Notes under the pieces: generated by a model
The model's input: the letters and a program-made list of their open reading frames with translations, nothing else
Database searches by the model: none
Told to the model about the DNA's origin: nothing
Translations under genes and position numbers: made by a program
DNA from: Bacteroidaceae bacterium
GTDB taxonomy: Bacteria; Bacteroidota; Bacteroidia; Bacteroidales; Bacteroidaceae
Reading direction: 5' to 3'
Length of the DNA stretch: 57,199 nucleotides
Assembly (NCBI GenBank): GCA_017617235.1
Contig: JAFZWQ010000002.1
Location: 1 to 57,199 of the forward strand
Shown: positions 20,889 through 55,703 of the stretch, piece by piece
Layout of the letters: each line of letters opens with the position of its first letter
Position numbering within the stretch: the stretch's first letter is position 1

Positions 20889-23800
20889 ATGCCCCGTTTC
20901 CAGTTCGAGATATGTGCCAATGGCGTTGAAAGTTGTATAGCCGCCCAACAGGGGGGAGCCGACCGAGTGGAGCTGTGTGCCAATATCCCTGAAGGCGGTA
21001 CTACCCCTTCGTATGGCGAAATAAAGATTGCCCGCCAGATACAGACCACAACACGCTTGCATGTCATTATTCGCCCACGAGGAGGAAATTTTGTATACAC
21101 AGACCTGGAGATAGAGCGTATGATGGCAGACATTGAAGTGTGCCGACAATTGGGTGCCGATGGTGTTGTCTTCGGCTGCCTAACCCCCACTGGTGAAGTC
21201 GATATGCCACGATGCAGGCAGTTGATGGAGGCAGCAAAGGGAATGTCCGTAACCTTCCACAGAGCTTTCGACCGCACAAGAGACCCACATCAAGCACTGG
21301 AGGATATCATAGCACTGGGATGTGACCGTATTCTCACCTCAGGACAACAGCCTACAGCAGACAAAGGAACATCCTTATTGCACGATTTAAACTTGCAAGC
21401 CGAAGGACGCATCATTCTGTTGGCAGGAAGCGGAGTTAACGAGGAAAACATTCTACGCATCCATCGTGAAACAGGTATTCACGAATTCCACTTCTCGGCC
21501 CGTGAGCCCGTAGGCTACGATGACCCCGAATTTGGGAAACGGATGCAAACTACCGCACAACGGGTACGGAACACCATCAAGCGTCTAACGCTAATTCTCA
21601 TTGTACAACTTTCCCTGACAGGTATTCTTCAAGCCCAGGATATTACAAAGGCTTTTCAAGAAAAGGAAAGCGTCATTGGCACGCAATACACCCAAGGCAT
21701 TAGTCAGCTCGAGAATACAGAGGAACAAGAGGCTCTGCGTTTTCTCTATGCCTATATGCCACTGGCAGACATTACAGACTATCCGTTGGAATTTCATCTG
21801 CAAAACGTGCGTGCCAGTTTTCAAGCCCGTCAGGAAATGCCTTGGGGCAAGAAGGTGCCAGACTTGCTGTTCCGCCATTTTGTACTGCCTGTCCGTGTAA
21901 ACAACGAAGCGCTTGACTCATCGCGAGTTGTCTTTTTCCGAGAACTGAAGGAACGTGTCAAAGGAATGGGAATGAAGGAGGCCATACTGGAAGTAAACCA
22001 TTGGTGCCACGAACGGGTTACCTATGCTCCAAGTGACGGACGGACGCTCTCGCCTCTGGCCTGCATCAAGAATGCCCTAGGCCGTTGCGGCGAGGAATCC
22101 ACATTTACGGTATCAGCTTTACGAAGTATCGGCATACCAGCACGTCAGGTTTATACCCCACGTTGGGCACATACCGACGACAACCATGCATGGGTGGAAG
22201 CCTGGGCCGACGGACAATGGTACTTCCTGGGCGCCTGCGAACCCGAACCCGTCCTGAATCTCGGATGGTTCAATGCTCCAGCCTCTCGGGCAATGCTGAT
22301 GCACACCCGCGCCTTTGGCGATTACCGTGGTCCAGAGGAAGTGATGCTTCGTACATCGTGCTTCACCGAAATCAACCTCATCGACAACTACGGTTCCAGT
22401 GCACGCATCGACTTTCGCATTGTCGACGAACGCGGAAAAGCGGTTAACGATGCACGCGTTGATTTCAAACTATACAACTATGCCGAATTCTGCACCGTAG
22501 CTACGAAATACACCGATACGAAAGGACGCACTTTCCTTACCGCTGGCAAAGGCGATATGTTGGTATGGGCAGCGAAAGACGGAAAGTTCGGATGGAAGAA
22601 AGCCTCGTTTGGTAAGGACAAAAGCATAACTATAGCCCTTTCCAAAAGCATAAAGCACGAGGAGACGCTTGACATTGTGCCGCCACCCGAACGTGTACTG
22701 ATACCCGAAGTCCCTGTCGAACTGAAACAAGAGAACCAACGACGGCTGATCAACGAAGATTCGTTGCGACACGCCTACGAGGCAACCTTCATCTCAGGAG
22801 CAACGGCTCAGCAATACGCCCCACGATTCACAAAATTTCTCACCAAGAGCAGAGGAAACTGGCCCGTCATCCTTACCTTTATATATAAGAACCGGAGCCA
22901 AGAAGAACGTGTCTACCAACTGCTGTCCACGCTCAGCGACAAAGACCTGCGCGACATGCCTTTGGAAATTCTGGAAGACAACCTCATGGCCCAAAGCGAC
23001 ATACTTTGTCCGCGTGTAGAAAACGAAATGATACTGCACCCCTACAAGCATTTGTTCCAGGATGCATTCGATGCCGATACGAAAATGAAAATGCAACAAT
23101 CCCCCATGCTGCTGGTAAAGTGGGTGAAGGATAACATTCGGTTGAATCCCGACAAAAAAGCACTACGCATCGCCCAAACTCCTGTGGGCGTATGGCAGTC
23201 ACGACTTACCGACACCCGCAGCCGCGATATATTCTTCGTGGCAATGGCCCGCTCGCTAGGCATCGAAGCACGCAAAGATGTGGTAACTGGGAAAGTACAG
23301 TACAAGACGAACGGTAGCTGGGTAGATGTAGACTTCGAGGCAACGCAACAAGTTATAAGTCCCAAGGGTACGCTTTTATTAACCTATGAGCCGACGAAGT
23401 ATGTCGAAGACCCAAAATACTACAGTCACTTTACGATTACACGCATTACGTCCAATGGAGGAACCAGTCTGCTGAACTTCGAAGAAGGACAAGTCGATAT
23501 GGGCGGCGGAACCAGTTGGAGCAACACTTTCAAGAATGGGACACAACTGGATGCTGGAACCTATCTGCTGACCACAGGAACCCGACTTGCCAACGGAAGC
23601 GTCTTGGCCACAAACCGGCTATTCACCATCGAAGAGGGCAAAACCACCACTCTCCCTCTTATCCTTCGTCGAAGCGATAGCGATGTTAGTGTCATTGGTT
23701 CCTTCGATTCCGAAAGCAAGTACACCCCCATCTCTGCCCCATCCTCGTCGCCGGCCTCCATTTTGAGTCAGACGGGACGTGGATACTTCGTCGTGGGACT

Positions 23801-24143
23801 CGTAGGAATGGGACAGGAACCCACAAATCACGCTCTGCGCGACATCTGCAAAGTCGGCAAAGACTTCGATACATGGGGACGCCCATTGCTGCTCCTCTTC
23901 GAAAGTGAGGGAGAAGCCCGCAAGTTCAATGCCGACGATTACGGAACCCTGCCGCATAATACTCTTCTGGGCATTGATACTGACGGCAACATCCGCCGGC
24001 AAATTATGGAGAACATGAAACTCACAAACCATCAAATGCCCGTCTTCATCATCGCCGACACGTTTAACCGCGTGGTTTTCTGCTCGCAAGGCTACACTAT
24101 CGGACTAGGTGAACAACTGCAACAGACCATCAAAAAGCTATAA
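20889..24143 (+). CDS. CutC-like protein fused in frame to an exported double transglutaminase-like protein
   Basis: Residues 1-229 match CutC, a TIM-barrel family once linked to copper homeostasis ('QGGADRVELCANIPEGGTTPS', 'VTFHRAFDRTRDP', 'TSGQQPTA'). Directly after, 'IKRLTLILIVQLSLTGILQA' (about 230-249) looks exactly like a signal peptide. The rest is an exported transglutaminase-like protein: a first domain with Cys400 in 'GRCGEEST' and His433 in 'DNHAWVEAW', and a second, degenerate domain near 750 ('SRDIFFVAMARSLGIEARK') with Ser in place of the Cys. A thioredoxin-like C-terminus follows. Codon 230 is ATC where a start ATG would be expected, so two genes may have merged by one base change. 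The 1084-residue fusion has a topology problem: a cytosolic domain before an export signal. Confidence 0.85.
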   Translation: MPRFQFEICANGVESCIAAQQGGADRVELCANIPEGGTTPSYGEIKIARQIQTTTRLHVIIRPRGGNFVYTDLEIERMMADIEVCRQLGADGVVFGCLTPTGEVDMPRCRQLMEAAKGMSVTFHRAFDRTRDPHQALEDIIALGCDRILTSGQQPTADKGTSLLHDLNLQAEGRIILLAGSGVNEENILRIHRETGIHEFHFSAREPVGYDDPEFGKRMQTTAQRVRNTIKRLTLILIVQLSLTGILQAQDITKAFQEKESVIGTQYTQGISQLENTEEQEALRFLYAYMPLADITDYPLEFHLQNVRASFQARQEMPWGKKVPDLLFRHFVLPVRVNNEALDSSRVVFFRELKERVKGMGMKEAILEVNHWCHERVTYAPSDGRTLSPLACIKNALGRCGEESTFTVSALRSIGIPARQVYTPRWAHTDDNHAWVEAWADGQWYFLGACEPEPVLNLGWFNAPASRAMLMHTRAFGDYRGPEEVMLRTSCFTEINLIDNYGSSARIDFRIVDERGKAVNDARVDFKLYNYAEFCTVATKYTDTKGRTFLTAGKGDMLVWAAKDGKFGWKKASFGKDKSITIALSKSIKHEETLDIVPPPERVLIPEVPVELKQENQRRLINEDSLRHAYEATFISGATAQQYAPRFTKFLTKSRGNWPVILTFIYKNRSQEERVYQLLSTLSDKDLRDMPLEILEDNLMAQSDILCPRVENEMILHPYKHLFQDAFDADTKMKMQQSPMLLVKWVKDNIRLNPDKKALRIAQTPVGVWQSRLTDTRSRDIFFVAMARSLGIEARKDVVTGKVQYKTNGSWVDVDFEATQQVISPKGTLLLTYEPTKYVEDPKYYSHFTITRITSNGGTSLLNFEEGQVDMGGGTSWSNTFKNGTQLDAGTYLLTTGTRLANGSVLATNRLFTIEEGKTTTLPLILRRSDSDVSVIGSFDSESKYTPISAPSSSPASILSQTGRGYFVVGLVGMGQEPTNHALRDICKVGKDFDTWGRPLLLLFESEGEARKFNADDYGTLPHNTLLGIDTDGNIRRQIMENMKLTNHQMPVFIIADTFNRVVFCSQGYTIGLGEQLQQTIKKL

Positions 24144-45998: not shown

Positions 45999-46030
45999 TT
46001 TGGTATTGCACACGATTTACACTATCTTTG
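45999..46030 (+). promoter_or_regulatory. Bacteroidota-type promoter of the aromatic-acid module (iorA)
   Basis: TTTG (45999-46002) is followed after exactly 20 nt by TATCTTTG (46023-46030). This matches the consensus and lies 39 nt before the iorA start. Confidence 0.8.
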
Positions 46031-46069: not shown

Positions 46070-47716
46070 ATGACTGAGAAACGACTATTATTGGGCGACG
46101 AAGCCATAGCGTTGGGAGCACTTCACGCAGGACTTTCTGGCGTGTATGCCTATCCTGGCACTCCCTCAACGGAAATCACAGAATTCATTCAAGGTAGCCC
46201 TCTGGCCAAGGAGCGTAACGTTCATAGCCGCTGGTGTACCAACGAGAAGACGGCTATGGAAGCCGCTCTGGGTATGTCCTTCATGGGCAAGCGTGCTTTG
46301 GTTTGTATGAAGCACGTAGGTTTGAACGTTTGTGCCGACCCCTTCGTGAACAGCGGTATGACGGGTGTAAACGGTGGTGTTGTGGTACTCGTTGCCGATG
46401 ACCCCTCTATGCACTCTTCTCAGGATGAGCAGGACAGCCGTTTCTACGGTAAGTTCGCTTTGATTCCCACGTTCGAGCCCTCGAACCAGCAGGAGGCCTA
46501 TGATATGATGGAGGCTGCCTTCGATTATTCCGAGCAGCAGTGTCTGCCCGTCCTGATGCGTGTCACCACCCGTATGGCACACTCCCGTGCTGTGGTACAG
46601 GTAAAGGAAGAGGCTCGTCCTGAGAACGAGATGAACTACAATGCCGTTGCTGCTAACTGGGTTCTCCTGCCCGCCAATGCCCGTAAACGTAACGATAAGG
46701 TTACTGCTCAGCAGGCACAATTGGAAGAGGATGCAGCTAAATCAAAGTTCAATAGCCTCACCCTTAACGGGAAGGCTCCCTTAGGAATCATCGCCTCTGG
46801 TATAGCATACAATTATGTTCAGGAAACGCTTAATACTCTTCCCCTCGGGGAGGCAGGGAAGGGGGTTCCTGTTTTGAAGATTTCCCAATATCCTTTGCCC
46901 AAGCGCCTGGTACGCCAACTGTTGGACAGCTGCGAGAAGGTGATGATTGTAGAAGAGGGTCAGCCCTTCATCGAGGAGCAGGTTCGTGGTGTCTTCGAGA
47001 GCCAGAATATCCTGGGTCGTCTCACTGGCGAACTTCCTCGCACAGGTGAATTAACTCCCGACTGCGTAAAAAAGGCGCTTTCCGAATACTCCAATTATTC
47101 TGAGAATTCAGAGTACTCAGAAATTCCTGCCTTAGTGGCTGCTCGTCCTCCCCAGCTCTGTCAAGGTTGCGGTCACCGCGATGTATATACCGCATTGAAC
47201 GAAGTGCTGAAGGAGTACGAGAATCCTCGTGTCTTTGGTGATATCGGTTGCTACACACTTGGCTTCCTGCCCCCATACCGTGCTATTCATTCTTGCGTGG
47301 ATATGGGTGCCAGCATCACAATGGCCAAGGGAGCTTCTGATGCAGGTCAGTGGCCAGCTGTTGCTATCATTGGCGACTCTACCTTCACCCACAGCGGTAT
47401 GACCGGTCTCTTGGATGCTGTCAACGAGAAGGCAAACATTACTGTTATCATCTCTGACAACCTCACTACCGCTATGACGGGTGGTCAGGATAGCGCCGGT
47501 ACCAACAAGTTCGAGGCCATCTGCCTGGGTCTTGGTGTAGAGCCCGAGCATCTGCATGTGGTAGTTCCCCTGCCCAAGAATATGCCCGAGATTACACGCA
47601 TCATCCGCGAAGAAATCAACTACAAGGGCGTTTCTGTCATCATCCCTCAGCGCGAATGCATCCAGACCTTCAAACGTCACGCTAAAGAGAAGAAGGCTGC
47701 TGCCAATTCGAAATAA
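46070..47716 (+). CDS. iorA: Indolepyruvate ferredoxin oxidoreductase, alpha subunit (IorA), lacking the ferredoxin domain
   Basis: IorA is the TPP-binding subunit that interconverts arylpyruvates and arylacetyl-CoA with ferredoxin. The 548-residue protein has the pyrimidine-binding N-terminus ('GLSGVYAYPGTPSTEITEF'), 'RPPQLCQGCGHRDVY' (Cys364, Cys367) and the TPP region 'IIGDSTFTHSGMTGLLDAV'. Archaeal IorA carries a C-terminal ferredoxin domain with two 4Fe-4S clusters; here the protein ends at 'RHAKEKKAAANSK' with no cysteine cluster. Two low-complexity segments, 'LPLGEAGKGV' (about 257-266) and 'SEYSNYSENSEYSE' (about 338-351), are encoded by microrepeats and keep the frame. It is the first gene of the module, with its own promoter. 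Confidence 0.92.
   Translation: MTEKRLLLGDEAIALGALHAGLSGVYAYPGTPSTEITEFIQGSPLAKERNVHSRWCTNEKTAMEAALGMSFMGKRALVCMKHVGLNVCADPFVNSGMTGVNGGVVVLVADDPSMHSSQDEQDSRFYGKFALIPTFEPSNQQEAYDMMEAAFDYSEQQCLPVLMRVTTRMAHSRAVVQVKEEARPENEMNYNAVAANWVLLPANARKRNDKVTAQQAQLEEDAAKSKFNSLTLNGKAPLGIIASGIAYNYVQETLNTLPLGEAGKGVPVLKISQYPLPKRLVRQLLDSCEKVMIVEEGQPFIEEQVRGVFESQNILGRLTGELPRTGELTPDCVKKALSEYSNYSENSEYSEIPALVAARPPQLCQGCGHRDVYTALNEVLKEYENPRVFGDIGCYTLGFLPPYRAIHSCVDMGASITMAKGASDAGQWPAVAIIGDSTFTHSGMTGLLDAVNEKANITVIISDNLTTAMTGGQDSAGTNKFEAICLGLGVEPEHLHVVVPLPKNMPEITRIIREEINYKGVSVIIPQRECIQTFKRHAKEKKAAANSK
46837..46870. repeat. GC-rich microrepeat inserted in frame in iorA
   Basis: The element CTTCCCCTCGGGGAGG plus GGGAAGGGGGT is related to the inverted pair at 12796-12922. 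It encodes 'LPLGEAGKGV' in a likely surface loop between domains of IorA. Confidence 0.7.
47081..47125. repeat. GAATACTCC-type microrepeat in frame in iorA
   Basis: Diverged units of TCCGAATACTCC / TATTCTGAG / TACTCAGAA encode the low-complexity stretch 'SEYSNYSENSEYSE', just before the 'RPPQLCQGCGH' domain. Confidence 0.6.
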
Positions 47717-47749
47717 CGAAATATCGTCATAACGTAATAACGAAGAATA
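47709..47749. repeat. AACG-type spacer microrepeat, iorA-iorB junction
   Basis: The spacer holds GAAATATCG and ATAACGTAATAACGAA. Almost the same sequence occurs at 55176-55214, and a related one at 48324-48371, all between genes of the aromatic-acid module. Confidence 0.7.
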
Positions 47750-48322
47750 ATGAAGACCGATATAATTCTATGTGGTGTGGGGGGCCAAGGAATCCTCTCA
47801 ATCGCTACAATCATTGGCGAAGCAGCCATGAACGAGAACCTATATATCAAGCAGGCCGAGGTGCACGGAATGTCTCAGCGAGGCGGCGACGTTCAGTCGA
47901 ACTTGCGCATCTCCAGCAACCCAATTGCCAGCGACCTGATTGCCAAAGGCGGAGCTGATGTCATCATTTCTATGGAGCCAATGGAAGCTCTTCGCTACCT
48001 GCCTTACTTGAATAAAGAAGGTTGGGTTATTACCTCAAGCACTCCTTTTATCAATATACCGAATTATCCTGAGTTAGAGGGTATTAAGAAAGAGCTCAAT
48101 AAACTTCCTCACGTCATTACTATCGACATAGAGCAACTGGCAAAGGAAAACCAAATACCCCGTTCAGCCAACGTCATTCTGCTGGGTGCAGCTCAAAAGG
48201 CTCTTGGTCTCGATTACGCTACGTTGGAGAATGCCATCCGCCGCGTCTTCGGTCGCAAAGGCGATGCCGTAGTAGAAGCCAACATCAAAGCTCTGGCATT
48301 AGGCCGCGAGGCACAGAAATAA
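47750..48322 (+). CDS. iorB: Indolepyruvate ferredoxin oxidoreductase, beta subunit (IorB)
   Basis: The 190-residue protein is the gamma-type subunit of 2-oxoacid:ferredoxin oxidoreductases. It opens with 'DIILCGVGGQGILSIATIIG' and has 'EVHGMSQRGGDVQSNLR', both diagnostic. It pairs with IorA, 33 nt upstream. The spacer between them is a microrepeat also seen before the aminotransferase and ACT genes. Confidence 0.94.
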   Translation: MKTDIILCGVGGQGILSIATIIGEAAMNENLYIKQAEVHGMSQRGGDVQSNLRISSNPIASDLIAKGGADVIISMEPMEALRYLPYLNKEGWVITSSTPFINIPNYPELEGIKKELNKLPHVITIDIEQLAKENQIPRSANVILLGAAQKALGLDYATLENAIRRVFGRKGDAVVEANIKALALGREAQK

Positions 48323-48323
48323 A

Positions 48324-48371
48324 GTCGTTATAACGTCATAACGAAATGTCGAAATAACGAAATATCGTAAA
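48324..48371. repeat. AACG-type spacer microrepeat, iorB-aminotransferase junction
   Basis: Diverged units of the type ATAACGTCATAACGAA, followed by GAAATAACGAAATATCG, fill the spacer between iorB and the aminotransferase gene. Confidence 0.65.
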
Positions 48372-48374
48372 AGA

Positions 48375-49682
48375 ATGGAAGCAACTCCTATAAAGAAAGA
48401 GATTGTGGATGGACTGATCGCCAAGATGGGCATTCAGGATTTTGCTAAGGCAACCATCCGCGAGGTGAAGCAGGTGGCTGCAATGGCCGAGAAAGAATCA
48501 GGCGTTGAGTTTATTAAGATGGAGATGGGAATTCCCGGATTACCTGCCGCTGAGGTGGGTGTAAAGGCGCAGATTAAGGCGCTGCAAGACGGTATTGCCC
48601 ACTCTTACCCCGATATTCAGGGTTACCCCGAGCTGAAGAAGCAGGCATCACGCTTTGTGAAGGCATTCATTGGTGTGGACATAGCTGCTGAGGGTTGTGT
48701 GCCTGTTACAGGCAGTATGCAGGGAACATTTGCTTCGTTCCTGACCTGTTCACAGGCCTGCAAGCAGAAGGATACGGTGCTGTTCATCGACCCGGGCTTC
48801 CCCGTTCAGAAGATGCAGCTGCAGGTACAGGGCGTGAAGTACGAGACGTTCGATGTCTATGACTTTCGTGGCGATAAGCTGCGTGCCAAACTGGAGAGTT
48901 ACCTCCGTAAGGGCAACATCTGCGCCATCGTCTATTCCAACCCCAACAACCCATCGTGGGTCTGTCTGACGGAGAGTGAGCTCCAGACGATTGGCGAGCT
49001 GGCCACTCAGTACGATACCATCATCATGGAAGACCTTGCATACTTTGCTATGGACTTCCGTCAGGATTTGAGTGTTCCGTTCGAGGCTCCCTATCAGCCA
49101 ACCGTTGCCCGCTATACTGATAATTATATGCTGCTGATCAGCGGATCAAAGGCATTCAGCTATGCCGGTGAGCGAATCGGAGTGGTGTGCATCAGCGATA
49201 AGCTGTTCCACCGTCATTACGACGATCTGGCTGCCCGCTACGAGGGTCTGCCCTTCGGATTGGTATTCAGCACGCGTATGCTCTATGCCCTCAGCAGCGG
49301 CACCAGTCATTCTGCCCAGTATGCGCTGGCCGAGATGTTCCGTGCTGCCTGTGATGGCGAATACCGTTTCCGCGATGATATAAAAGTCTATGGCGAGCGT
49401 GCCAAGAAACTGAAGGATATCTTCTGCAAACACGGCTTCTATATTGTATATGATAAAGACGGTGACCAACCCGTTGCTGACGGCTTCTATTTCACCATCG
49501 GTTATCCAGGTATGACCAGCGGACAATTGGCTCAAGAACTGATGTACTATGGAGTGAGTGCCATTTGCCTGATTACCACAGGCTCACATCAGGAAGGACT
49601 GCGCGTGTGCACTTCGTTCATCGAAGACCATCAGTATGAGCAGCTGGAAGAGAGAATGGCAATCTTTGAAAAGAATAACTAA
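48375..49682 (+). CDS. PLP-dependent aminotransferase, class I/II
   Basis: The 435-residue protein has 'PVTGSMQGTFASFL', 'IVYSNPNNPSWVCL', 'IIMEDLAYFAMDF' and the PLP lysine in 'SGSKAFSYAGERIG'. Position between IorAB and the rest of the module suggests that it interconverts aromatic amino acids and arylpyruvates; the amino donor is not known. It could also act in either direction of the pathway. It is preceded by a microrepeat spacer. Confidence 0.88.
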   Translation: MEATPIKKEIVDGLIAKMGIQDFAKATIREVKQVAAMAEKESGVEFIKMEMGIPGLPAAEVGVKAQIKALQDGIAHSYPDIQGYPELKKQASRFVKAFIGVDIAAEGCVPVTGSMQGTFASFLTCSQACKQKDTVLFIDPGFPVQKMQLQVQGVKYETFDVYDFRGDKLRAKLESYLRKGNICAIVYSNPNNPSWVCLTESELQTIGELATQYDTIIMEDLAYFAMDFRQDLSVPFEAPYQPTVARYTDNYMLLISGSKAFSYAGERIGVVCISDKLFHRHYDDLAARYEGLPFGLVFSTRMLYALSSGTSHSAQYALAEMFRAACDGEYRFRDDIKVYGERAKKLKDIFCKHGFYIVYDKDGDQPVADGFYFTIGYPGMTSGQLAQELMYYGVSAICLITTGSHQEGLRVCTSFIEDHQYEQLEERMAIFEKNN

Positions 49683-49724
49683 TAAGGCTCATAGGGCCCA
49701 TTATTAATTTATTAACTAACAACA

Positions 49725-50870
49725 ATGAAACAAAAAACAATTTTCGCGAAAGCGACGCTGGCAGTGGCGTTAGCCATTTTCAGCAGCACAGCGGCCATGG
49801 GACAAAGGCCACGGGTTGACGACGGAACGTCGGGAGTGAGCGACTCTACCGCCACCAAAAGTAAAGGTAAAAAGGTTTTAGAAACACTTGCAGATCACAT
49901 CCAACTACATGGATATGCACAAGGCGGTTACTGTTACACCAACCGCAGTAACACCAACACAAACTCCTTCGAACTTAAACGAGTTCTTTTCTGGGCAAAC
50001 GCCCAAATCACCGACCGTTGGTCGTTCCTATTCATGCACGACTTCTCGAGTGTCGTTCAGGAATTCTACACAGACTATCGCATTACCAAGAACAAGGCCC
50101 TAACCGTCAGGGTAGGACAATTCAAGAATGGTCTGTCACTCGAAAATCCCCTCTCCCCCACTTCTATGGAAGCCATCGACGTCTATTCGGAAGGCGTAAC
50201 TTTCCTTTCTGGTTGCGGCAGCGACCCCCTGATGGGTGTACAATATGGTCGTGACCTGGGTTTGGCCCTGTTTGGCGAAACCAATGATGCCAAACTACGT
50301 TACGAGCTGCAGGTGATGAACGGACAAGGCATCAACAAGAAAGACGGGAACAATTTCAAAGATATTATTGGAAGAATAGAATACCGCCCCGTAAAAGGAT
50401 TGAACCTTGTGGCTACCGGCCAGATAGGCCGTGGGCACTCGGTTGCTGACCCCATTGCAGGAACAGGAACGGGCGGTTCAGTATATAACCCCACTATCAA
50501 TAAGGGCGACGATTATAAGCGCAACCGCTGGACAGCGGGATTTGACTATAAATGTAAGAAAATCAAGTTGCACGGCGAATATCTGGAAGGCTATGATGGC
50601 AACGTTACCAGTCGCGGAGGATATCTGACAGGCTCCGTACCCCTGGGGCGCCCGGATTTGGAGTTCGTGGGTTCGTATGACTATTTCAACTTCAACACCA
50701 CACTCGGCTACGATCAGCACAAGGCCATTGCCGGCATTCAGTACTGGTTCTACCAAAAGTGTCGCGTGCAGTTGCAATATGTCTATAAGAGTGCCTACAC
50801 AGCTGGTGGTGTATTTGTGCGCGACAACAGTCACGCCATCATGTGTCAGTTGCAAGTACGCTTCAATTAA
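49725..50870 (+). CDS. Outer-membrane porin-like protein (phosphate-selective porin O/P-like)
   Basis: The 381-residue protein has a signal peptide ('ALAIFSSTAAMGQ') and strands typical of 16-strand porins ('IQLHGYAQGGYCY', 'FSFLFMHDFSSVVQ' type alternation, 'YRPVKGLNLVATGQIG'). It ends in a terminal aromatic-Asn ('MCQLQVRFN'). It likely lets small anions through the outer membrane. The setting suggests an aromatic acid as cargo, which is inference. It lies 42 nt after the aminotransferase gene. Confidence 0.75.
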   Translation: MKQKTIFAKATLAVALAIFSSTAAMGQRPRVDDGTSGVSDSTATKSKGKKVLETLADHIQLHGYAQGGYCYTNRSNTNTNSFELKRVLFWANAQITDRWSFLFMHDFSSVVQEFYTDYRITKNKALTVRVGQFKNGLSLENPLSPTSMEAIDVYSEGVTFLSGCGSDPLMGVQYGRDLGLALFGETNDAKLRYELQVMNGQGINKKDGNNFKDIIGRIEYRPVKGLNLVATGQIGRGHSVADPIAGTGTGGSVYNPTINKGDDYKRNRWTAGFDYKCKKIKLHGEYLEGYDGNVTSRGGYLTGSVPLGRPDLEFVGSYDYFNFNTTLGYDQHKAIAGIQYWFYQKCRVQLQYVYKSAYTAGGVFVRDNSHAIMCQLQVRFN

Positions 50871-50912
50871 CTGGGGGCATTAATCAGAATTCCTAATTCG
50901 TAATTATACATC

Positions 50913-52439
50913 ATGTTTCTAAAAGTTATATTAACCATTATCTTTCTGGTCGTAATGGTTGGTGTGGGAGTGTACTCCCGTAAGCAGGCCAGTAGTGTAG
51001 AAGGTTTTGTACTGGGCGGACGTGCCGTAGGTCCTTGGTTGACGGCTTTCGCCTTTGGAACCAGTTATTTCTCTGCCGTAGTATTTGTGGGTTATGCCGG
51101 TCAGTTTGGTTGGAAGTATGGTCTTTCTAGCGCTTGGATTGGTATCGGCAATGCCATCATAGGTTCGCTCTTAGCATGGATTATCTTAGGTAGGCGTACC
51201 AAATTAATGACCCAGCACATAGAGAGTCGCACCATGCCCGATTTCTTCGGAACCCGCTTCAGCGATCAGGGTTTGCGTGTAGCAGCTTCCATCATCGCCT
51301 TCGTGTTCCTGATTCCCTATACAGCCGGTGTGTATAGCGGTATCTCGCGTCTCTTCGAGATGGGCTTCGATATCCCCTATGAATACTGTGTGATTATCAT
51401 GTCCATACTGACGGCTGTCTATGTGATTATTGGCGGCTACAAGGCAACTGCCATGAACGACTTCATTCAGGGCATCATCATGCTCTTCGGTATCGTTGCT
51501 GTCATCATTGCCGTGCTGAATGCACAAGGCGGCCTAACAACAGCCGTCGAGAAACTGGCTGCCATTTCCTCTGATGCTAATCCTGCCGTGAACGGTGGCT
51601 TTGCCTCGTGGTTCGGTCCTGATCCTTGGGGATTGCTGGGTGTGGTTATCCTGACCTCTCTGGGTACCATGGGATTGCCTCAGATGGTAGGTAAATTCTA
51701 CAGTATTACCGATGAAAGCGCCATCAAGCGCGGTACCGTCATCAGCACTATCTTCGCCTTTATCGTGGCAGGCGGTTGCTACTTCCTGGGTGGTTTCGGT
51801 CGTCTGTATGAACCCGTCATCAACGAGGCAACCGGCAAGATAGCCTTCGACTCTATTGTACCTGCTATGCTCATCACATTGCCCGATATCCTTATCGCCC
51901 TGGTGGTACTGCTGGTGCTGAGTGCTTCTATGTCGACATTGGCATCTTTGGTGCTGACCTCCAGTTCAACCATGACCCTCGACCTGATCTATCGCGATAA
52001 GAAATCCCTGCCCGGTGAGGTGGAAGAAGGAACCATCGACGATATCGTGGCCGAGAAGATAGAGCGTCGTAAGGTAGTGGTAATGCGTGTGCTGATAGTA
52101 TTCTTCATCGTCATCTCCCTGTTGATAGCCCTGAATCCGCCCACCTTCATTGCCCAACTGATGGGTATCTCTTGGGGTGCTTTGGCTGGTGCCTTCCTGG
52201 CTCCCTTCATGTTGGGTCTCTACTGGCGTGGTGTTACCCCCATTTCCGTATGGGCATGCTTCATCTGGGGCGTAGGCCTTACCGTTGTGAACATGCTGTT
52301 GGGCAACCCCATCAATCCCATCAACTGTGGTGCCATTGCCATGCTGGGAGGATTCCCCGTGGTGCTGCTGGTTAGCCTGTTCACCAAGAAACTACCTGCT
52401 GCCGATGTAAGCCGTATGTTCGAGTGCTATAAGAAATAA
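50913..52439 (+). CDS. Sodium:solute symporter (SSS family)
   Basis: The 508-residue protein is hydrophobic with about 13 membrane helices. It begins with 'VILTIIFLVVMVGVGVYSRK' and has 'FVLGGRAVGPWLTAFAFGTS' with the SSS signature glycine and serine pattern, and 'YVIIGGYKATAMNDFIQGII'. It imports a solute with sodium. The solute is not shown by sequence; the neighbours suggest a carboxylate such as an arylacetate. It lies 42 nt after the porin gene. Confidence 0.9.
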   Translation: MFLKVILTIIFLVVMVGVGVYSRKQASSVEGFVLGGRAVGPWLTAFAFGTSYFSAVVFVGYAGQFGWKYGLSSAWIGIGNAIIGSLLAWIILGRRTKLMTQHIESRTMPDFFGTRFSDQGLRVAASIIAFVFLIPYTAGVYSGISRLFEMGFDIPYEYCVIIMSILTAVYVIIGGYKATAMNDFIQGIIMLFGIVAVIIAVLNAQGGLTTAVEKLAAISSDANPAVNGGFASWFGPDPWGLLGVVILTSLGTMGLPQMVGKFYSITDESAIKRGTVISTIFAFIVAGGCYFLGGFGRLYEPVINEATGKIAFDSIVPAMLITLPDILIALVVLLVLSASMSTLASLVLTSSSTMTLDLIYRDKKSLPGEVEEGTIDDIVAEKIERRKVVVMRVLIVFFIVISLLIALNPPTFIAQLMGISWGALAGAFLAPFMLGLYWRGVTPISVWACFIWGVGLTVVNMLLGNPINPINCGAIAMLGGFPVVLLVSLFTKKLPAADVSRMFECYKK

Positions 52440-52453
52440 TGTAAACCAAATTG

Positions 52454-52485
52454 TTTGTCCAAACGCAGATTTTGTTGTACTTTTG
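52454..52485 (+). promoter_or_regulatory. Bacteroidota-type promoter before the first phenylacetate-CoA ligase gene
   Basis: TTTG (52454-52457) is followed after 20 nt by TACTTTTG (52478-52485), matching the consensus. It lies between the symporter stop and the ligase start, so the ligase-ACT part can be expressed separately from iorA. It argues for the ligase start at 52518 over 52455. Confidence 0.75.
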
Positions 52486-52517
52486 CATGGGACAAAACCT
52501 TAAACAATAGAAAAAAC

Positions 52518-53825
52518 ATGATTTGGAATCCCAATAAAGAATGTATGAGTCGCGACGAGAGGAGCGCGCTGCAAGGTAAACGTCTGCACAAGATTGTGGA
52601 ATATGTCTACCACAACGTTCCCTTCTATCGCAACAAGTTGCAGGAACTGGATATCCGTCCTGATGATATTCAGACCATTGAGGATATCACAAAACTGCCC
52701 TTCACCACCAAGAAAGACCTCAGAGACAATTACCCCTTTGGCTTGCAGGCAGCTCCGCAGAGTGAGATTATCCGTGTACATGCCAGTAGCGGCACAACAG
52801 GTAACCCCACCATTGTGGGATATACCCGCAAGGATATAGGTGTATGGAGCGAGTGTATGGCCCGCTGTCTGACTGCCTATGGTGTGACACGCGATGATAT
52901 CTTTTCGGTGGCTTACGGCTACGGCTTGTTCACGGGCGGCTTGGGCGCTCACTATGGCGTGGAGCACCTGGGTGCCTCTTGTATCCCTGCAGGAACGGGT
53001 AATACAGAGAAGCATCTGAAACTTATTCGCGACCTGGGTATTACCGGTTTGGCTTGTACCCCCTCTTACGCCCTGTATCTGGCAGAGACAATGGATAAGC
53101 TGGGCATCAAGAAGGAAGACCTGAAACTGCGGGTAGGTGCTTTCGGTGCTGAGCCTTGGACAGAAAGCATGCGTAAGGAGATTGAGGCTCGTCTGGGCCT
53201 GAAGGGCTATAATATCTACGGACTTTCCGAGGTGATGGGCCCCAGCGTCAGCTACGAGTGTCAGATGCAGAACGGCTCTCACATCAACGAAGACCATTTC
53301 TTCCCCGAGATTATCAACCCCGTAACCCTAGAGCCACTGCCTGTGGGACAGACAGGTGAGCTTGTGTTCACTACGCTGACCAAGGAAGGTATGCCCGTAC
53401 TGCGTTATCGTACACGCGATCTCTGTTCTCTGTTGCCCGGCACTTGCGACTGCGGTCGTACCAACGTGCGTATGGGACGTATTCAGGGGCGTTCCGACGA
53501 TATGCTAATCATTCGTGGTATCAACGTATTCCCCTCTCAGGTAGAGAGCGTTATTCTCTCGTTGCCCGAGTTTGCACCTCACTACCTGTTGATTGTGGAT
53601 CGCGTCAACAATCTGGACACCCTGCTGGTACAGGCAGAGCTGCGTCAGGAGGTATTTACCTCTACCTTCGATACACCAGCTGCTGTAGAGGCACTGGAGA
53701 AGAAACTGGCCGCCAAGCTAAAGAGCGTGCTCAGTATCGCCGCAAAGGTTCAGCTGAAGGCTCCTGGTACCATAGAACGTAGTCAGGGCAAGAGTGCTCA
53801 TGTTATAGATAATCGTAAACTCTGA
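52518..53825 (+). CDS. paaK: Phenylacetate-CoA ligase family protein, copy 1 (PaaK)
   Basis: PaaK activates aryl acids with ATP and CoA, giving arylacetyl-CoA and AMP; it can also run the other way. The 435-residue protein starts at ATG 52518 (MIWNPNKECM) and shows the AMP-binding signature 'ASSGTTGNPT', 'YGLSEVMGPSVS', 'RYRTRDL' and a C-terminal 'RSDDMLIIRGINVFPSQVES'. It has its own promoter and is followed by a second, divergent copy 23 nt downstream. Which aryl acid each copy prefers is not known. Confidence 0.9.
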   Translation: MIWNPNKECMSRDERSALQGKRLHKIVEYVYHNVPFYRNKLQELDIRPDDIQTIEDITKLPFTTKKDLRDNYPFGLQAAPQSEIIRVHASSGTTGNPTIVGYTRKDIGVWSECMARCLTAYGVTRDDIFSVAYGYGLFTGGLGAHYGVEHLGASCIPAGTGNTEKHLKLIRDLGITGLACTPSYALYLAETMDKLGIKKEDLKLRVGAFGAEPWTESMRKEIEARLGLKGYNIYGLSEVMGPSVSYECQMQNGSHINEDHFFPEIINPVTLEPLPVGQTGELVFTTLTKEGMPVLRYRTRDLCSLLPGTCDCGRTNVRMGRIQGRSDDMLIIRGINVFPSQVESVILSLPEFAPHYLLIVDRVNNLDTLLVQAELRQEVFTSTFDTPAAVEALEKKLAAKLKSVLSIAAKVQLKAPGTIERSQGKSAHVIDNRKL

Positions 53826-53828
53826 TAA

Positions 53829-53850
53829 TTCATAATTTATAATTCATAAT
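53829..53850. repeat. AT-rich spacer microrepeat between the two ligase genes
   Basis: TAATTCATAATTTATAATTC fills most of the gap between the two ligase genes, and the start codon of the second lies at its end. It resembles the AT-rich class elsewhere in the window. Confidence 0.55.
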
Positions 53851-55168
53851 GAGTGAAAAACATGAGGGGTTGTATTTTAACCCCGAAATCGAAACCATGA
53901 CGAGGGAGCAGATAGAAGCGCTCCAACTCGAAAGATTGCAGAAGACGGTGCGCCACTGCATGAACAACGAGTTCTACCGCAAGAAATTTGCGGAGGCAGG
54001 CATCACACCCGATGATATCAAGACCTTGGCAGATGTCCGCAAGCTGCCTTTCACCACCAAACAGGATTTGCGCGAGACCTATCCCTTTGGAATGTCCTGC
54101 GTGCCTATGAAGGATTGCGTCCGTTTGCATTCCTCCAGCGGAACAACAGGTAACCCCACCGTTATCCTGCATACCAAGAAGGACCTTGACGAATGGGCCA
54201 ATCAGGTGGCTCGTAATCTGTGGATGGTGGGCCTTCGTCCTGATGATGTCTTCCAGAACTCCAGCGGTTATGGTATGTTCACCGGCGGCCTTGGTTTCCA
54301 GTACGGAGCCGAGAAGTTGGGAATGCTGACGGTTCCTGCTGCAGCTGGTAACTCGCTGCGTCAGATTAAGTTCATCAAGGACTTCGGCACTACTGCCATT
54401 CATGCTGTACCTTCGTATATCACACGCCTCCATGAGGTGATGAAGGAGGAAGGTGTAGATCCCCGTCGTGATACCAAGCTGAAAGTGTTGGCCATCGGTG
54501 CTGAACCTCACTCTGAGGAACAGCGCAAGCGCATCGAGGATATGATGGGGGTAAAGGCCTACAACTCTTTCGGCATGAGCGAGATGTGCGGTCCTGGCGT
54601 TGGTTTCGAATGTCCTGAGCAGAACGGTATGCACTTCTGGGAGGACTACTACATTGTAGAGATTGTCAACCCAGAGACATTGGAGCCCGTTCCTGATGGC
54701 GAGATTGGCGAGTTGGTACTCACAACGCTCTGTCGTGAGGCAATGCCCCTGTTGCGTTATCGCACACGCGACCTTACCCGTGTCTTGGGCAGAACCTGTC
54801 CCTGTGGTCGTAACCACGTGCGTATCGACCGCATGAAGGGTCGTAGCGATGATATGATGGTGCTGCGTGGCGTGAATATCTTCCCCATCCAGATTGAGAA
54901 GATACTGATGCAGTTCAGCGAACTGGCCAGCAACTACCTTATCACCCTCACCACCGACGAGGAGAACGACAACATGACGGTAGAGGTCGAATTAGCACAA
55001 CCCACCGACGATTACGCACAGTTGAAAGCGCTGGAGAACGAGATTCGTCGTCGCCTAAAGGACGAAATTCTGTTAACGCCCATCGTCAAGTTGGTTCCCC
55101 TTGGTTCACTGCCTGTCAGCGAAGGAAAAGCCATCCGTGTGGTTGACAAGAGAAAGGTCTATCAGTAA
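53849..55168 (+). CDS. paaK: Phenylacetate-CoA ligase family protein, copy 2 (PaaK)
   Basis: The 439-residue protein has 'HSSSGTTGNPT', 'FGMSEMCGPGVG', 'LLRYRTRDLTR' and 'RSDDMMVLRGVNIFPIQIE', the same family signatures as copy 1. The two copies are clearly different sequences and therefore not a recent duplication. They might activate different aryl acids, for example phenylacetate and indoleacetate; this is inference. It lies 55 nt before the ACT-domain gene. Confidence 0.9.
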   Translation: MSEKHEGLYFNPEIETMTREQIEALQLERLQKTVRHCMNNEFYRKKFAEAGITPDDIKTLADVRKLPFTTKQDLRETYPFGMSCVPMKDCVRLHSSSGTTGNPTVILHTKKDLDEWANQVARNLWMVGLRPDDVFQNSSGYGMFTGGLGFQYGAEKLGMLTVPAAAGNSLRQIKFIKDFGTTAIHAVPSYITRLHEVMKEEGVDPRRDTKLKVLAIGAEPHSEEQRKRIEDMMGVKAYNSFGMSEMCGPGVGFECPEQNGMHFWEDYYIVEIVNPETLEPVPDGEIGELVLTTLCREAMPLLRYRTRDLTRVLGRTCPCGRNHVRIDRMKGRSDDMMVLRGVNIFPIQIEKILMQFSELASNYLITLTTDEENDNMTVEVELAQPTDDYAQLKALENEIRRRLKDEILLTPIVKLVPLGSLPVSEGKAIRVVDKRKVYQ

Positions 55169-55175
55169 TCTCCTC

Positions 55176-55214
55176 GTAATAAAGAAATATCGATATAACG
55201 TAATAACGAAAAAC
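55176..55214. repeat. AACG-type spacer microrepeat, ligase-ACT junction
   Basis: GAAATATCG and ATAACGTAATAACGAA repeat the iorA-iorB spacer almost exactly, although the flanking genes differ. Confidence 0.7.
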
Positions 55215-55223
55215 ATAAGAACT

Positions 55224-55652
55224 ATGACAATCCATCAACTTTCCATTTTCATTGAGAACCGTTCAGGTACGCTCATCAAGGTGTTGGACGCCTTGAAGGA
55301 AGCAAAGATTCAGATTATTGCCTCCACCATTGCCGATACGGCAGAGTATGGTATCTATCGCCTCATCTGCAGCGAGCCCCTGCGTGCTTGCGAAGAACTG
55401 AAGAAGGCAGGCGTGGCTGTTGCTCTTAGCGATGTATTCGCCATCGAGATTGACGACCAACCCGGTCGTGCCGCAGAAGCCGTTAAGGTCTTCAGCGAGG
55501 CTGGCATCAGCATCACCTACATGTACTCTTTCCTGTTGCGCGGCAAGGGCATCCTCATCTTCCGCACCGACGACGGAGAGAAGGCTGCAAGTGTCATCAA
55601 AAACAACAACCTCAAGAGTATCGATGAGACCGACCTTACCCAGTGGGCCTAA
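55224..55652 (+). CDS. Double ACT-domain protein
   Basis: The 142-residue protein consists of two ACT domains: 'IHQLSIFIENRSGTLIKVLD' at the N-terminus and 'VFAIEIDDQPGRAAEAVKV' from about residue 71. ACT domains bind amino acids and regulate enzymes. The position after two phenylacetate-CoA ligases suggests it senses an aromatic amino acid and controls the ligases or IorAB. An earlier in-frame start at 55101 would overlap the ligase gene and is rejected. It is followed by a strong terminator. Confidence 0.9.
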   Translation: MTIHQLSIFIENRSGTLIKVLDALKEAKIQIIASTIADTAEYGIYRLICSEPLRACEELKKAGVAVALSDVFAIEIDDQPGRAAEAVKVFSEAGISITYMYSFLLRGKGILIFRTDDGEKAASVIKNNNLKSIDETDLTQWA

Positions 55653-55666
55653 GATTTAAGAATAAG

Positions 55667-55703
55667 AAAAGAGGTGCAACCCAAATTGGATTGCACCTCT
55701 TTT
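55667..55703 (+). terminator. Rho-independent terminator of the aromatic-acid module
   Basis: AAAAGAGGTGCAA (55667-55679) pairs perfectly with TTGCACCTCTTTT (55691-55703), around an 11-nt loop with CCAA/TTGG. A T-tract follows, extending to 55705. The stem is near symmetric and can also stop the convergent dnaK transcript. Confidence 0.95.

Follow-up and report, generated by a model that had tools for sequence, protein, structure and literature searches.

An eight-gene locus in a Bacteroidaceae bacterium that probably salvages arylacetates for the synthesis of aromatic amino acids

Rumen bacteria have long been known to make aromatic amino acids out of arylacetates. Eight consecutive genes of a Prevotella-like Bacteroidaceae bacterium raise the question of whether they form one module for this conversion and, if so, in which direction such a module would run. 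The run lies in a window of 57,199 nucleotides, which is the whole stretch of DNA analyzed here, and a first-pass annotation had described it as a complete gene set for converting arylacetates to aromatic amino acids or the reverse. We regard it as moderately probable that the run is an arylacetate salvage module making aromatic amino acids, probably organized in two transcription units. The ORF list and profile searches directly revealed eight genes on the plus strand between 46070 and 55652, with the families and the order as first described (Table 1). The intergenic gaps measure 23-78 bp. The start codons of paaK1 (ATG 52518) and of the ACT gene (ATG 55224) were read from the sequence; for both genes, the mechanical ORF list gives a start farther upstream.

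Table 1. Features of the eight-gene run and its flanks (positions in the window).
Feature	Positions	Strand	Basis
Bacteroidetes-type promoter before iorA, TTTG-20-TATCTTTG	45999..46030	+	motif scan
iorA, arylpyruvate (indolepyruvate) ferredoxin oxidoreductase (IOR) alpha subunit, without C-terminal ferredoxin domain	46070..47716	+	profiles, alignment
iorB, beta subunit	47750..48322	+	NF005324 312 bits (cut-off 222)
PLP aminotransferase class I/II (AT)	48375..49682	+	Pfam 89.5 bits; nearest solved chain 3g0t
Beta-barrel porin, Porin_O_P-like	49725..50870	+	Porin_O_P 29 bits (cut-off 20.9)
Sodium:solute symporter (SSS), PutP/PanF-like rather than ActP-like	50913..52439	+	SSF Pfam 173 bits
Bacteroidetes-type promoter before paaK1, TTTG-20-TACTTTTG	52454..52485	+	motif scan
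paaK1, AMP-forming arylacetate-CoA ligase type	52518..53825	+	nearest solved chain 2y27
paaK2, AMP-forming arylacetate-CoA ligase type	53849..55168	+	nearest solved chain 4r1l
ACT_8 double-ACT protein, candidate amino-acid sensor	55224..55652	+	ACT_8 231 bits; nearest solved chain 2f06
Terminator-like 17-pair hairpin, with the ACT and dnaK genes converging on it	55667..55703	.	scan and eye

The oxidoreductase has the architecture of an IOR, with the Pfam domains POR_N and TPP_enzyme_C fused in the alpha subunit and a separate POR beta subunit. IorA scored 549 bits against TIGR03336, below the cut-off of 650.9, and the match reaches profile position 542 of 595. The ferredoxin motif CxxCxxCxxxC was found in none of 95 relatives (loci of sets A and C), and cysteines 364, 367, 394, and 530 are invariant across 96 aligned rows. 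Judged from its sequence, IorA may be described as a Bacteroidales form of IOR outside the TIGR03336 equivalog. Both ligases carry the Pfam domains AMP-binding and AMP-binding_C_2. They scored 564 and 485 bits against TIGR02155, both below the equivalog cut-off of 646.3, and we label them PaaK-type because this cut-off was reached in 0/61 genomes. No named NCBIfam family reached its cut-off for the aminotransferase, and none did so for the symporter.

The promoters that had been noted before iorA and paaK1 were both observed as exact motif matches, and the motif TTTG-N(19-21)-TAnnTTTG occurs four times in the window (57 kb) versus 0.32 expected. In the 250 bp upstream of genes at the related loci (sets A and C; spacer 18-22), it was found in front of iorA in 31/94 and of paaK1 in 12/31 cases, compared to 114/1043 for other ORFs. 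The corresponding values were 5/64 for the aminotransferase gene and 0/171 for iorB, the porin, symporter, paaK2, and ACT genes taken together. Since there are two exact promoters, there are probably two transcription units, namely iorA-iorB-AT-porin-SSS and paaK1-paaK2-ACT. The terminator described at the end of the run is present as a terminator-like hairpin; the scan reports it for the minus strand only, and the T run on the plus strand was read by eye. Overall, the scan returned 16 terminator-like sites in the region versus 8.4 expected. The search for known leader RNAs gave a single sub-threshold match, STnc40 (27.4 bits, gathering threshold 45), overlying the terminator.

Joint gain and loss was analyzed in 37 same-genus genomes, including the window's own, in which IorB was called by the family cut-off, PaaK at E 1e-60, and SSS at E 1e-100. 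PaaK was observed in 27/27 genomes with IorB versus 1/10 without (Fisher p 8e-8), ACT_8 in 27/27 versus 2/10 (p 1.2e-6), and SSS in 22/27 versus 2/10 (p 1.1e-3), all three p values being uncorrected for kinship. As a kinship control, we used a tree of the nifJ-type PFOR covering 30 of the 37 genomes, with seven independent contrasts; G008, G009, G017, G018, G019, G025, and G028, which gave no nifJ-type match, are not part of it. On this tree PaaK follows IorB in 6.0 contrasts, ACT in 5.7, and SSS in 4.2, and none points in the opposite direction. The median sign-test p was 0.031 for PaaK, 0.031 for ACT, and 0.125 for SSS, so that the SSS contrast by itself is not significant. The neighborhood is conserved as well: within 8 kb of iorB, the aminotransferase gene was found in 63/79, 21/27, 3/19, and 14/20 loci of four sets, and a PaaK gene in 27/79, 19/27, 3/19, and 16/20. 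The gene set is thus more than chance, and its reading as one arylacetate/aromatic-amino-acid module is well supported by neighborhood and joint gain and loss.

In Pseudomonas, phenylacetate is taken up by the PhaK porin and the PhaJ/PaaL SSS permease. The window likewise has a porin and an SSS permease adjoining a phenylacetate-CoA ligase-type gene, although the subfamilies appear to be different and, unlike in Pseudomonas, the seven other genes are not those of aerobic paa degradation. The porin immediately precedes the symporter in 22 of the 24 same-genus genomes that have the symporter (window included). As first proposed, the symporter goes with the module in its distribution, being present in 24/29 genomes with ACT_8 versus 0/8 without. 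Alternatively, the porin and symporter might serve another substrate and simply share the locus, which would be compatible with either direction of the pathway. Consistent with this alternative, the symporter resembles PutP and not acetate permeases, it was not seen near other module genes in 10/24 genomes (two of these at contig ends), and in one clade the pair lies next to convergent genes of sugar-acid type (by eye). Against it stand the co-occurrence with ACT_8 and the position of the pair beside or inside the operon in other genera too (L231, L234), and we consider it a serious but rather doubtful option. By eye, no recurrent co-directional partner of the detached pair was seen beyond one near-identical context pair. 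Set A, where SSS occurs at 16 loci and the synthetase at 11 but never together, pointed to a mutual exclusion of the pair and an ADP-forming synthetase; this was rejected at the genome level, because both are present in 5/24 same-genus genomes with the symporter, and a full synthetase was found in 0/13 same-genus genomes without the symporter (one fragment, G022).

The reading arylacetate to aryl-CoA to arylpyruvate to aromatic amino acid is well supported; within it, the substrates, the direction, and the sensing are what we infer. Arylacetates released by other microbes (phenyl-, hydroxyphenyl-, and indoleacetate) would pass the porin and be imported by the sodium symporter. PaaK1 and PaaK2 would then form aryl-CoA, spending ATP to AMP, and IorAB would carboxylate it to arylpyruvate with reduced ferredoxin and CO2. 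The aminotransferase would turn this into Phe, Tyr, or Trp, a product that the ACT pair may sense. Where an omega-amidase family gene precedes iorA, as it does in many relatives, glutamine-driven transamination would run irreversibly to the amino acid. Genes for activation, carboxylation, and transamination are indeed present; "complete", however, was too strong a word, because we infer the substrates of the porin, symporter, ligases, and ACT protein only. The window's own genome also retains genes for prephenate dehydratase and TrpA, markers of the de novo aromatic routes, and the module would therefore be a salvage route and not the sole source. Among same-genus genomes, no association was seen between having the module and lacking the canonical synthesis of Phe or Trp.

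The direction tentatively leans to synthesis. The synthetic direction preferred in the first-pass annotation is favored by the AMP-forming ligases, the omega-amidase in relatives, and the lack of any match to an ADP-forming synthetase in the window's own genome (85.5% complete), with a query that matches 24/61 genomes. An omega-amidase family gene (NF007757) lies on the same strand within 500 bp upstream of iorA in 21/79, 10/27, 2/19, and 5/20 loci of the four sets, and omega-amidases render glutamine transamination irreversible (PMC6302742). The window's own operon and genome gave no full omega-amidase match, which counts against synthesis, as do the retained prephenate dehydratase and TrpA genes; the window contains no yafV remnant. 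Among IorB-positive genomes of other families, prephenate dehydratase was found in 6/6 with PaaK versus 5/13 without (p 0.018), and the ADP-forming synthetase in 2/6 versus 12/13 (p 0.017, or 0.046 once one match of 33% identity is dropped). TrpA did not differ (4/6 versus 6/13, p 0.63), and the synthetase also occurs independently of IorB, since 4/5 IorB-negative genomes of these families carry it. In addition, a Bacteroides ligase adjoining IOR was assayed as an arylacetate-CoA ligase, and a biosynthetic role was suggested (PMC13285125).

In the opposite, oxidative direction, amino acids would be transaminated and IorAB would yield aryl-CoA and reduced ferredoxin, the arylacetate leaving the cell while energy is conserved or CoA recycled. 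B. thetaiotaomicron makes less 4-hydroxyphenylacetate when BT0430 is deleted (PMC10746243), and a related IOR is therefore oxidative in culture. B. fragilis is described as releasing phenylacetate (PMC11304471), and PMC13290082 assayed the aryl-type oxidoreductases of gut acetogens as oxidative enzymes. Some loci also carry an ADP-forming synthetase (11/79), a CoA-transferase after the aminotransferase gene (3/20 same-family and 1/19 other-family loci), or a PaaI-like thioesterase (8/79). On the other hand, PMC13290082 gives quantifiable indoleacetate for 0/66 Bacteroidota strains, while describing low production by some Bacteroides. The ligases, of which two copies are kept, belong to the AMP-forming kind, and the omega-amidase of many relatives is expected to drive toward the amino acid. 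Fermentation with ATP gain, the main alternative at the outset, is thus weakened for this genome by the missing synthetase match, yet the only genetics seen on a related IOR, those of BT0430, are oxidative; we consider the oxidative direction unlikely here.

The chemistry of IOR is reversible. An operon that runs either way by nitrogen and redox state, its direction set by the ACT protein and ligases, would fit this, the activating and releasing enzymes that share the locus in some relatives (e.g., PaaK1 and PaaK2 alongside an ADP-forming synthetase and a PaaI-like thioesterase in L163), and the oxidative genetics in one relative (PMC10746243). Of the enzymes searched, however, those for activation are present in the window's own genome and the ADP-forming synthetase gave no match, and we think such an operon improbable.

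The salvage reading can be compared with known systems. IOR with an arylacetate ligase in Bacteroides, and a proposed biosynthetic role, were already published in 2026 (PMC13285125). The Bacteroides arrangement (BT0430-0429 type) shares iorAB followed by a PaaK2-type ligase, and 6/20 same-family loci have only a paaK2 match after iorAB (L218, a partial match, L219-L222, and L226); the window adds the aminotransferase, second ligase, porin, symporter, and ACT pair. In Methanococcus maripaludis, an aryl-acid pathway is a second pathway to aromatic amino acids, and methanogen IOR was proposed to run in reverse (PMC4162585, PMC13285125). The window similarly unites IOR, acyl activation, and aminotransferase, their function being read from the genes, but it is bacterial, its IorA has no ferredoxin domain, and it has PaaK-type ligases and a candidate uptake pair, with omega-amidase in relatives. 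Oxidative fermentation by IOR or VOR with an ADP-forming ligase or Pta-Ack (PMC13285125) shares the oxidoreductase family and aminotransferase, whereas the window's own genome has AMP-forming ligases and gave no match to an ADP-forming one. The ketoglutaramate ratchet of methionine salvage (glutamine transaminase and omega-amidase, PMC6302742) shares an aminotransferase and an omega-amidase family gene with the relatives' loci; it acts on another oxoacid, the window's own genome has no amidase match, and glutamine use here is putative. In the non-subscription literature searched, we did not come across the omega-amidase link, the transport pair, the second ligase, or the joint gain and loss.

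Taken further, we tentatively propose, as a possibility and not as the expected outcome, that Prevotella-like rumen bacteria and their relatives have a dedicated arylacetate salvage system that includes a pair of uptake proteins, one for the outer and one for the inner membrane. Many species would add an omega-amidase ketoglutaramate ratchet that forces the conversion of the arylpyruvates formed by IOR to Phe, Tyr, and Trp, and this would be the genetic basis of the rumen observation. If true, genes could be named for the conversion of arylacetates to amino acids in the rumen, and Bacteroidota would gain a candidate arylacetate uptake pair. It would also separate the gut and rumen species expected to remove phenylacetate and 4-hydroxyphenylacetate from those expected to release them; both compounds give rise to host metabolites with a link to cardiovascular risk (PMC10746243, PMC11477366).

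The IorA loci most similar to that of the window, among the best 80 of 580 relatives, belong to MAGs titled Prevotellaceae, Prevotella, Bacteroidaceae or Bacteroidales, and many of them come from ruminant stomach. The window itself, contig C18, belongs to a genome of 2.54 Mb in 50 contigs. Its eight-gene set consists of iorA, iorB, AT (PLP aminotransferase), a porin gene, SSS (sodium:solute symporter), paaK1, paaK2 and ACT (double-ACT protein), flanked by an M6-type peptidase gene and dnaK, both on the minus strand. At its end, where the first-pass annotation has a terminator, stands a terminator-like hairpin of 17 pairs.

Features located in the window
Feature	Positions	Strand	Remark
Eight-gene set	46070-55652	+	intergenic gaps 23-78 bp
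C10 peptidase	280-2604		N-terminal Spi inhibitor domain
CutC domain joined to transglutaminase core	20889-24143		one 1084-aa frame

Exact matches to the Bacteroidetes-type promoter motif were found at two sites in the set, before iorA and before paaK1. Promoters had been placed at both sites from the sequence, and in relatives the motif is indeed commoner there (upstream of iorA in 31/94 and of paaK1 in 12/31) than before other ORFs (114/1043). It precedes AT in 5/64 cases, and the search before the remaining five genes in relatives gave 0/171. Since the motifs precede iorA and paaK1, they suggest two units, iorA-iorB-AT-porin-SSS and paaK1-paaK2-ACT.

The window's IorA is an alpha subunit without the ferredoxin domain, and none of the 95 relatives with frames >500 aa in the sets A and C described below has the motif of this domain. 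Cysteines 364, 367, 394 and 530, as well as 79, are invariant in the 96 aligned rows; four of the invariant cysteines presumably hold the core cluster, judging by other oxidoreductases. IorB scores above its family cut-off. For the aminotransferase, none of the 25 NCBIfam matches listed, of 59, reached its cut-off: the best two stood at 76 bits, where 415 and 366 are required. The solved chain nearest to this aminotransferase, 3g0t, carries no name beyond putative aminotransferase. SSS scored best with PutP (186 bits) and PanF (176 bits), each under its cut-off, and low with ActP (45-46 bits). The nearest solved chains are 2y27 for paaK1 (446 bits) and 4r1l for paaK2 (651 bits), so the two ligases are not alike. 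In L221, a 4.9 Mb genome that belongs to the family but to a different genus, the ligase adjoining iorAB scores 897 bits against 4r1l, a structure from B. thetaiotaomicron.

Gene order was compared in four sets of relatives: the best 80 of 580 IorA relatives, 79 of them with a clear iorB match (set A); those genomes of the genus that carry IorB, 27 of 37 with the window's own counted (set B); 19 IorB-bearing genomes from other families of the order (set C); and 20 genomes hand-picked to span genera and to offer long contigs, out of the 110 with IorB in a search of 151 family genomes, where L227 alone shares the genus of the window and the other 19 belong to different genera (set D). Some set A genomes may recur in sets B and D. 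The eight genes are a real, conserved module. AT lies within 8 kb of iorB in 63/79, 21/27, 3/19 and 14/20 loci (sets A to D), any PaaK in 27/79, 19/27, 3/19 and 16/20, ACT in 22/79, 19/27, 2/19 and 10/20, and SSS in 15/79, 10/27, 0/19 and 3/20, all lower bounds because contig ends cut many loci (the full 8 kb on either side was available at 52, 16, 10 and 19). The porin gene stands immediately before SSS in 22 of the 24 SSS-bearing genomes of the genus; of the two exceptions, G006 is cut by a contig end and G005 has no porin at that place.

Within set D, five loci (L228, L229, L232, L233, L235) read yafV-iorA-iorB-AT-paaK1-ACT and L236 the same without yafV, six have iorAB with a paaK2 match only, three iorAB-AT-CoA-transferase, L223 iorAB-AT alone, and L227, L230, L231 and L234 mixed plans with two ligases or SSS. 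A butyryl-CoA:acetate CoA-transferase-like gene replaces paaK after iorAB-AT in L224, L225 and L237 (same family) and in L130 (other family). Two operon types occur within one genus: L167, L173, L178, L183 and L186 have another gene order (identities: iorA ~67%, paaK1 53-54%, AT 55-57%), and L175, L179 and L185 carry window-like copies (AT 80-92%) with porin and SSS. In one clade (L151, L154, L155, L156) a detached porin-SSS pair adjoins convergent genes, near in L149, that by eye resemble a sugar-acid kinase and an aldolase.

Across the 37 genus genomes, PaaK was found in 27/27 with IorB versus 1/10 without, ACT_8 (the double-ACT protein) in 27/27 versus 2/10 and SSS in 22/27 versus 2/10, absences being partly an artefact because the genomes are incomplete (61-92%). 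A quick PFOR (nifJ) tree, which covers 30 of these genomes, has IorB changing state 8 times or more. Among its 7 independent contrasts with support, PaaK goes along with IorB in 6.0, ACT in 5.7 and SSS in 4.2; none of the 7 runs against IorB, and for SSS on its own significance is not reached (median p 0.125).

The direction from arylacetate to amino acid, also proposed in the first-pass annotation, stands only in part: it is favoured by the ligases, by the missing synthetase and by an omega-amidase family gene in relatives, and opposed by a deletion phenotype, by releasing enzymes at the locus in some relatives and by the missing omega-amidase in the window's genome. PaaK1 and PaaK2 are of the AMP-forming kind, which counts toward synthesis, and the window's genome (85.5% complete) gave no match to an ADP-forming synthetase, a query that matches 24/61 genomes. 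In relatives, an NF007757 CN-hydrolase gene lies within 500 bp before iorA in 21/79 (best 80 of 580), 10/27, 2/19 and 5/20 loci of sets A to D. Two full-length copies score 260.6 and 262.1 bits (cut-off 249) and one called short 247.5 bits; E, K and C residues are visible. NCBIfam names the family amidohydrolase only, and PRK10438 is E. coli YafV. YafV is listed with a predicted omega-amidase of methionine salvage (PMC3223725), and omega-amidase removes ketoglutaramate, so that glutamine transamination is irreversible (PMC6302742). This ratchet argument rests on relatives, because the window's genome, at the same completeness, has no omega-amidase match.

The opposite direction, oxidative release of arylacetate, agrees with the finding that BT0430 deletion in B. 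thetaiotaomicron lowers 4-hydroxyphenylacetate (PMC10746243), and with the treatment of aryl oxidoreductases of acetogens as oxidative in PMC13290082. The BT0430 evidence may not transfer to the window's gene plan, since no AT, omega-amidase or ACT match is found nearby at those set D loci whose only ligase is of the PaaK2 type. An ADP-forming synthetase is present at 11/79 set A loci and a PaaI-like thioesterase, under its family cut-off, at 8/79 (best 80 of 580 for both), and a CoA-transferase at 3/20 set D loci. The synthetase gene follows AT on the opposite strand (L015, L016, L017, L022, L024, L025, L032, L036, L043, L053, L058), in 8 of these 11 divergent from paaK1; the window has porin and SSS there.

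In IorB-bearing genomes of other families, prephenate dehydratase (PDT) was found in 6/6 with PaaK versus 5/13 without, and the ADP-forming synthetase in 2/6 versus 12/13, one of the 12 matches being only 33% identical. Seven have neither PDT nor TrpA, all without PaaK; TrpA alone showed no difference (4/6 versus 6/13, p 0.63). The synthetase is not specific to IOR, because 4/5 IorB-lacking genomes of these families have one too. These counts, small and uncorrected for kinship, would be in line with IOR serving two purposes across the order, release in some genomes and, together with PaaK, activation in others.

The core idea is already published: Bacteroides IOR occurs with an AMP-forming ligase, a demonstrated arylacetate-CoA ligase, and a biosynthetic role was proposed (PMC13285125, 2026); aryl acids are cited as precursors in M. 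maripaludis (PMC4162585); and in the rumen phenylacetate can serve for making Phe (PMC7356843). The literature searched gave no account of the transport pair, ACT pair or second ligase in such a module, nor of the promoter arrangement, the omega-amidase link or joint gain and loss. With moderate confidence, we regard arylacetate salvage, from arylacetate through aryl-CoA and arylpyruvate to aromatic amino acid, as the best reading of the module.
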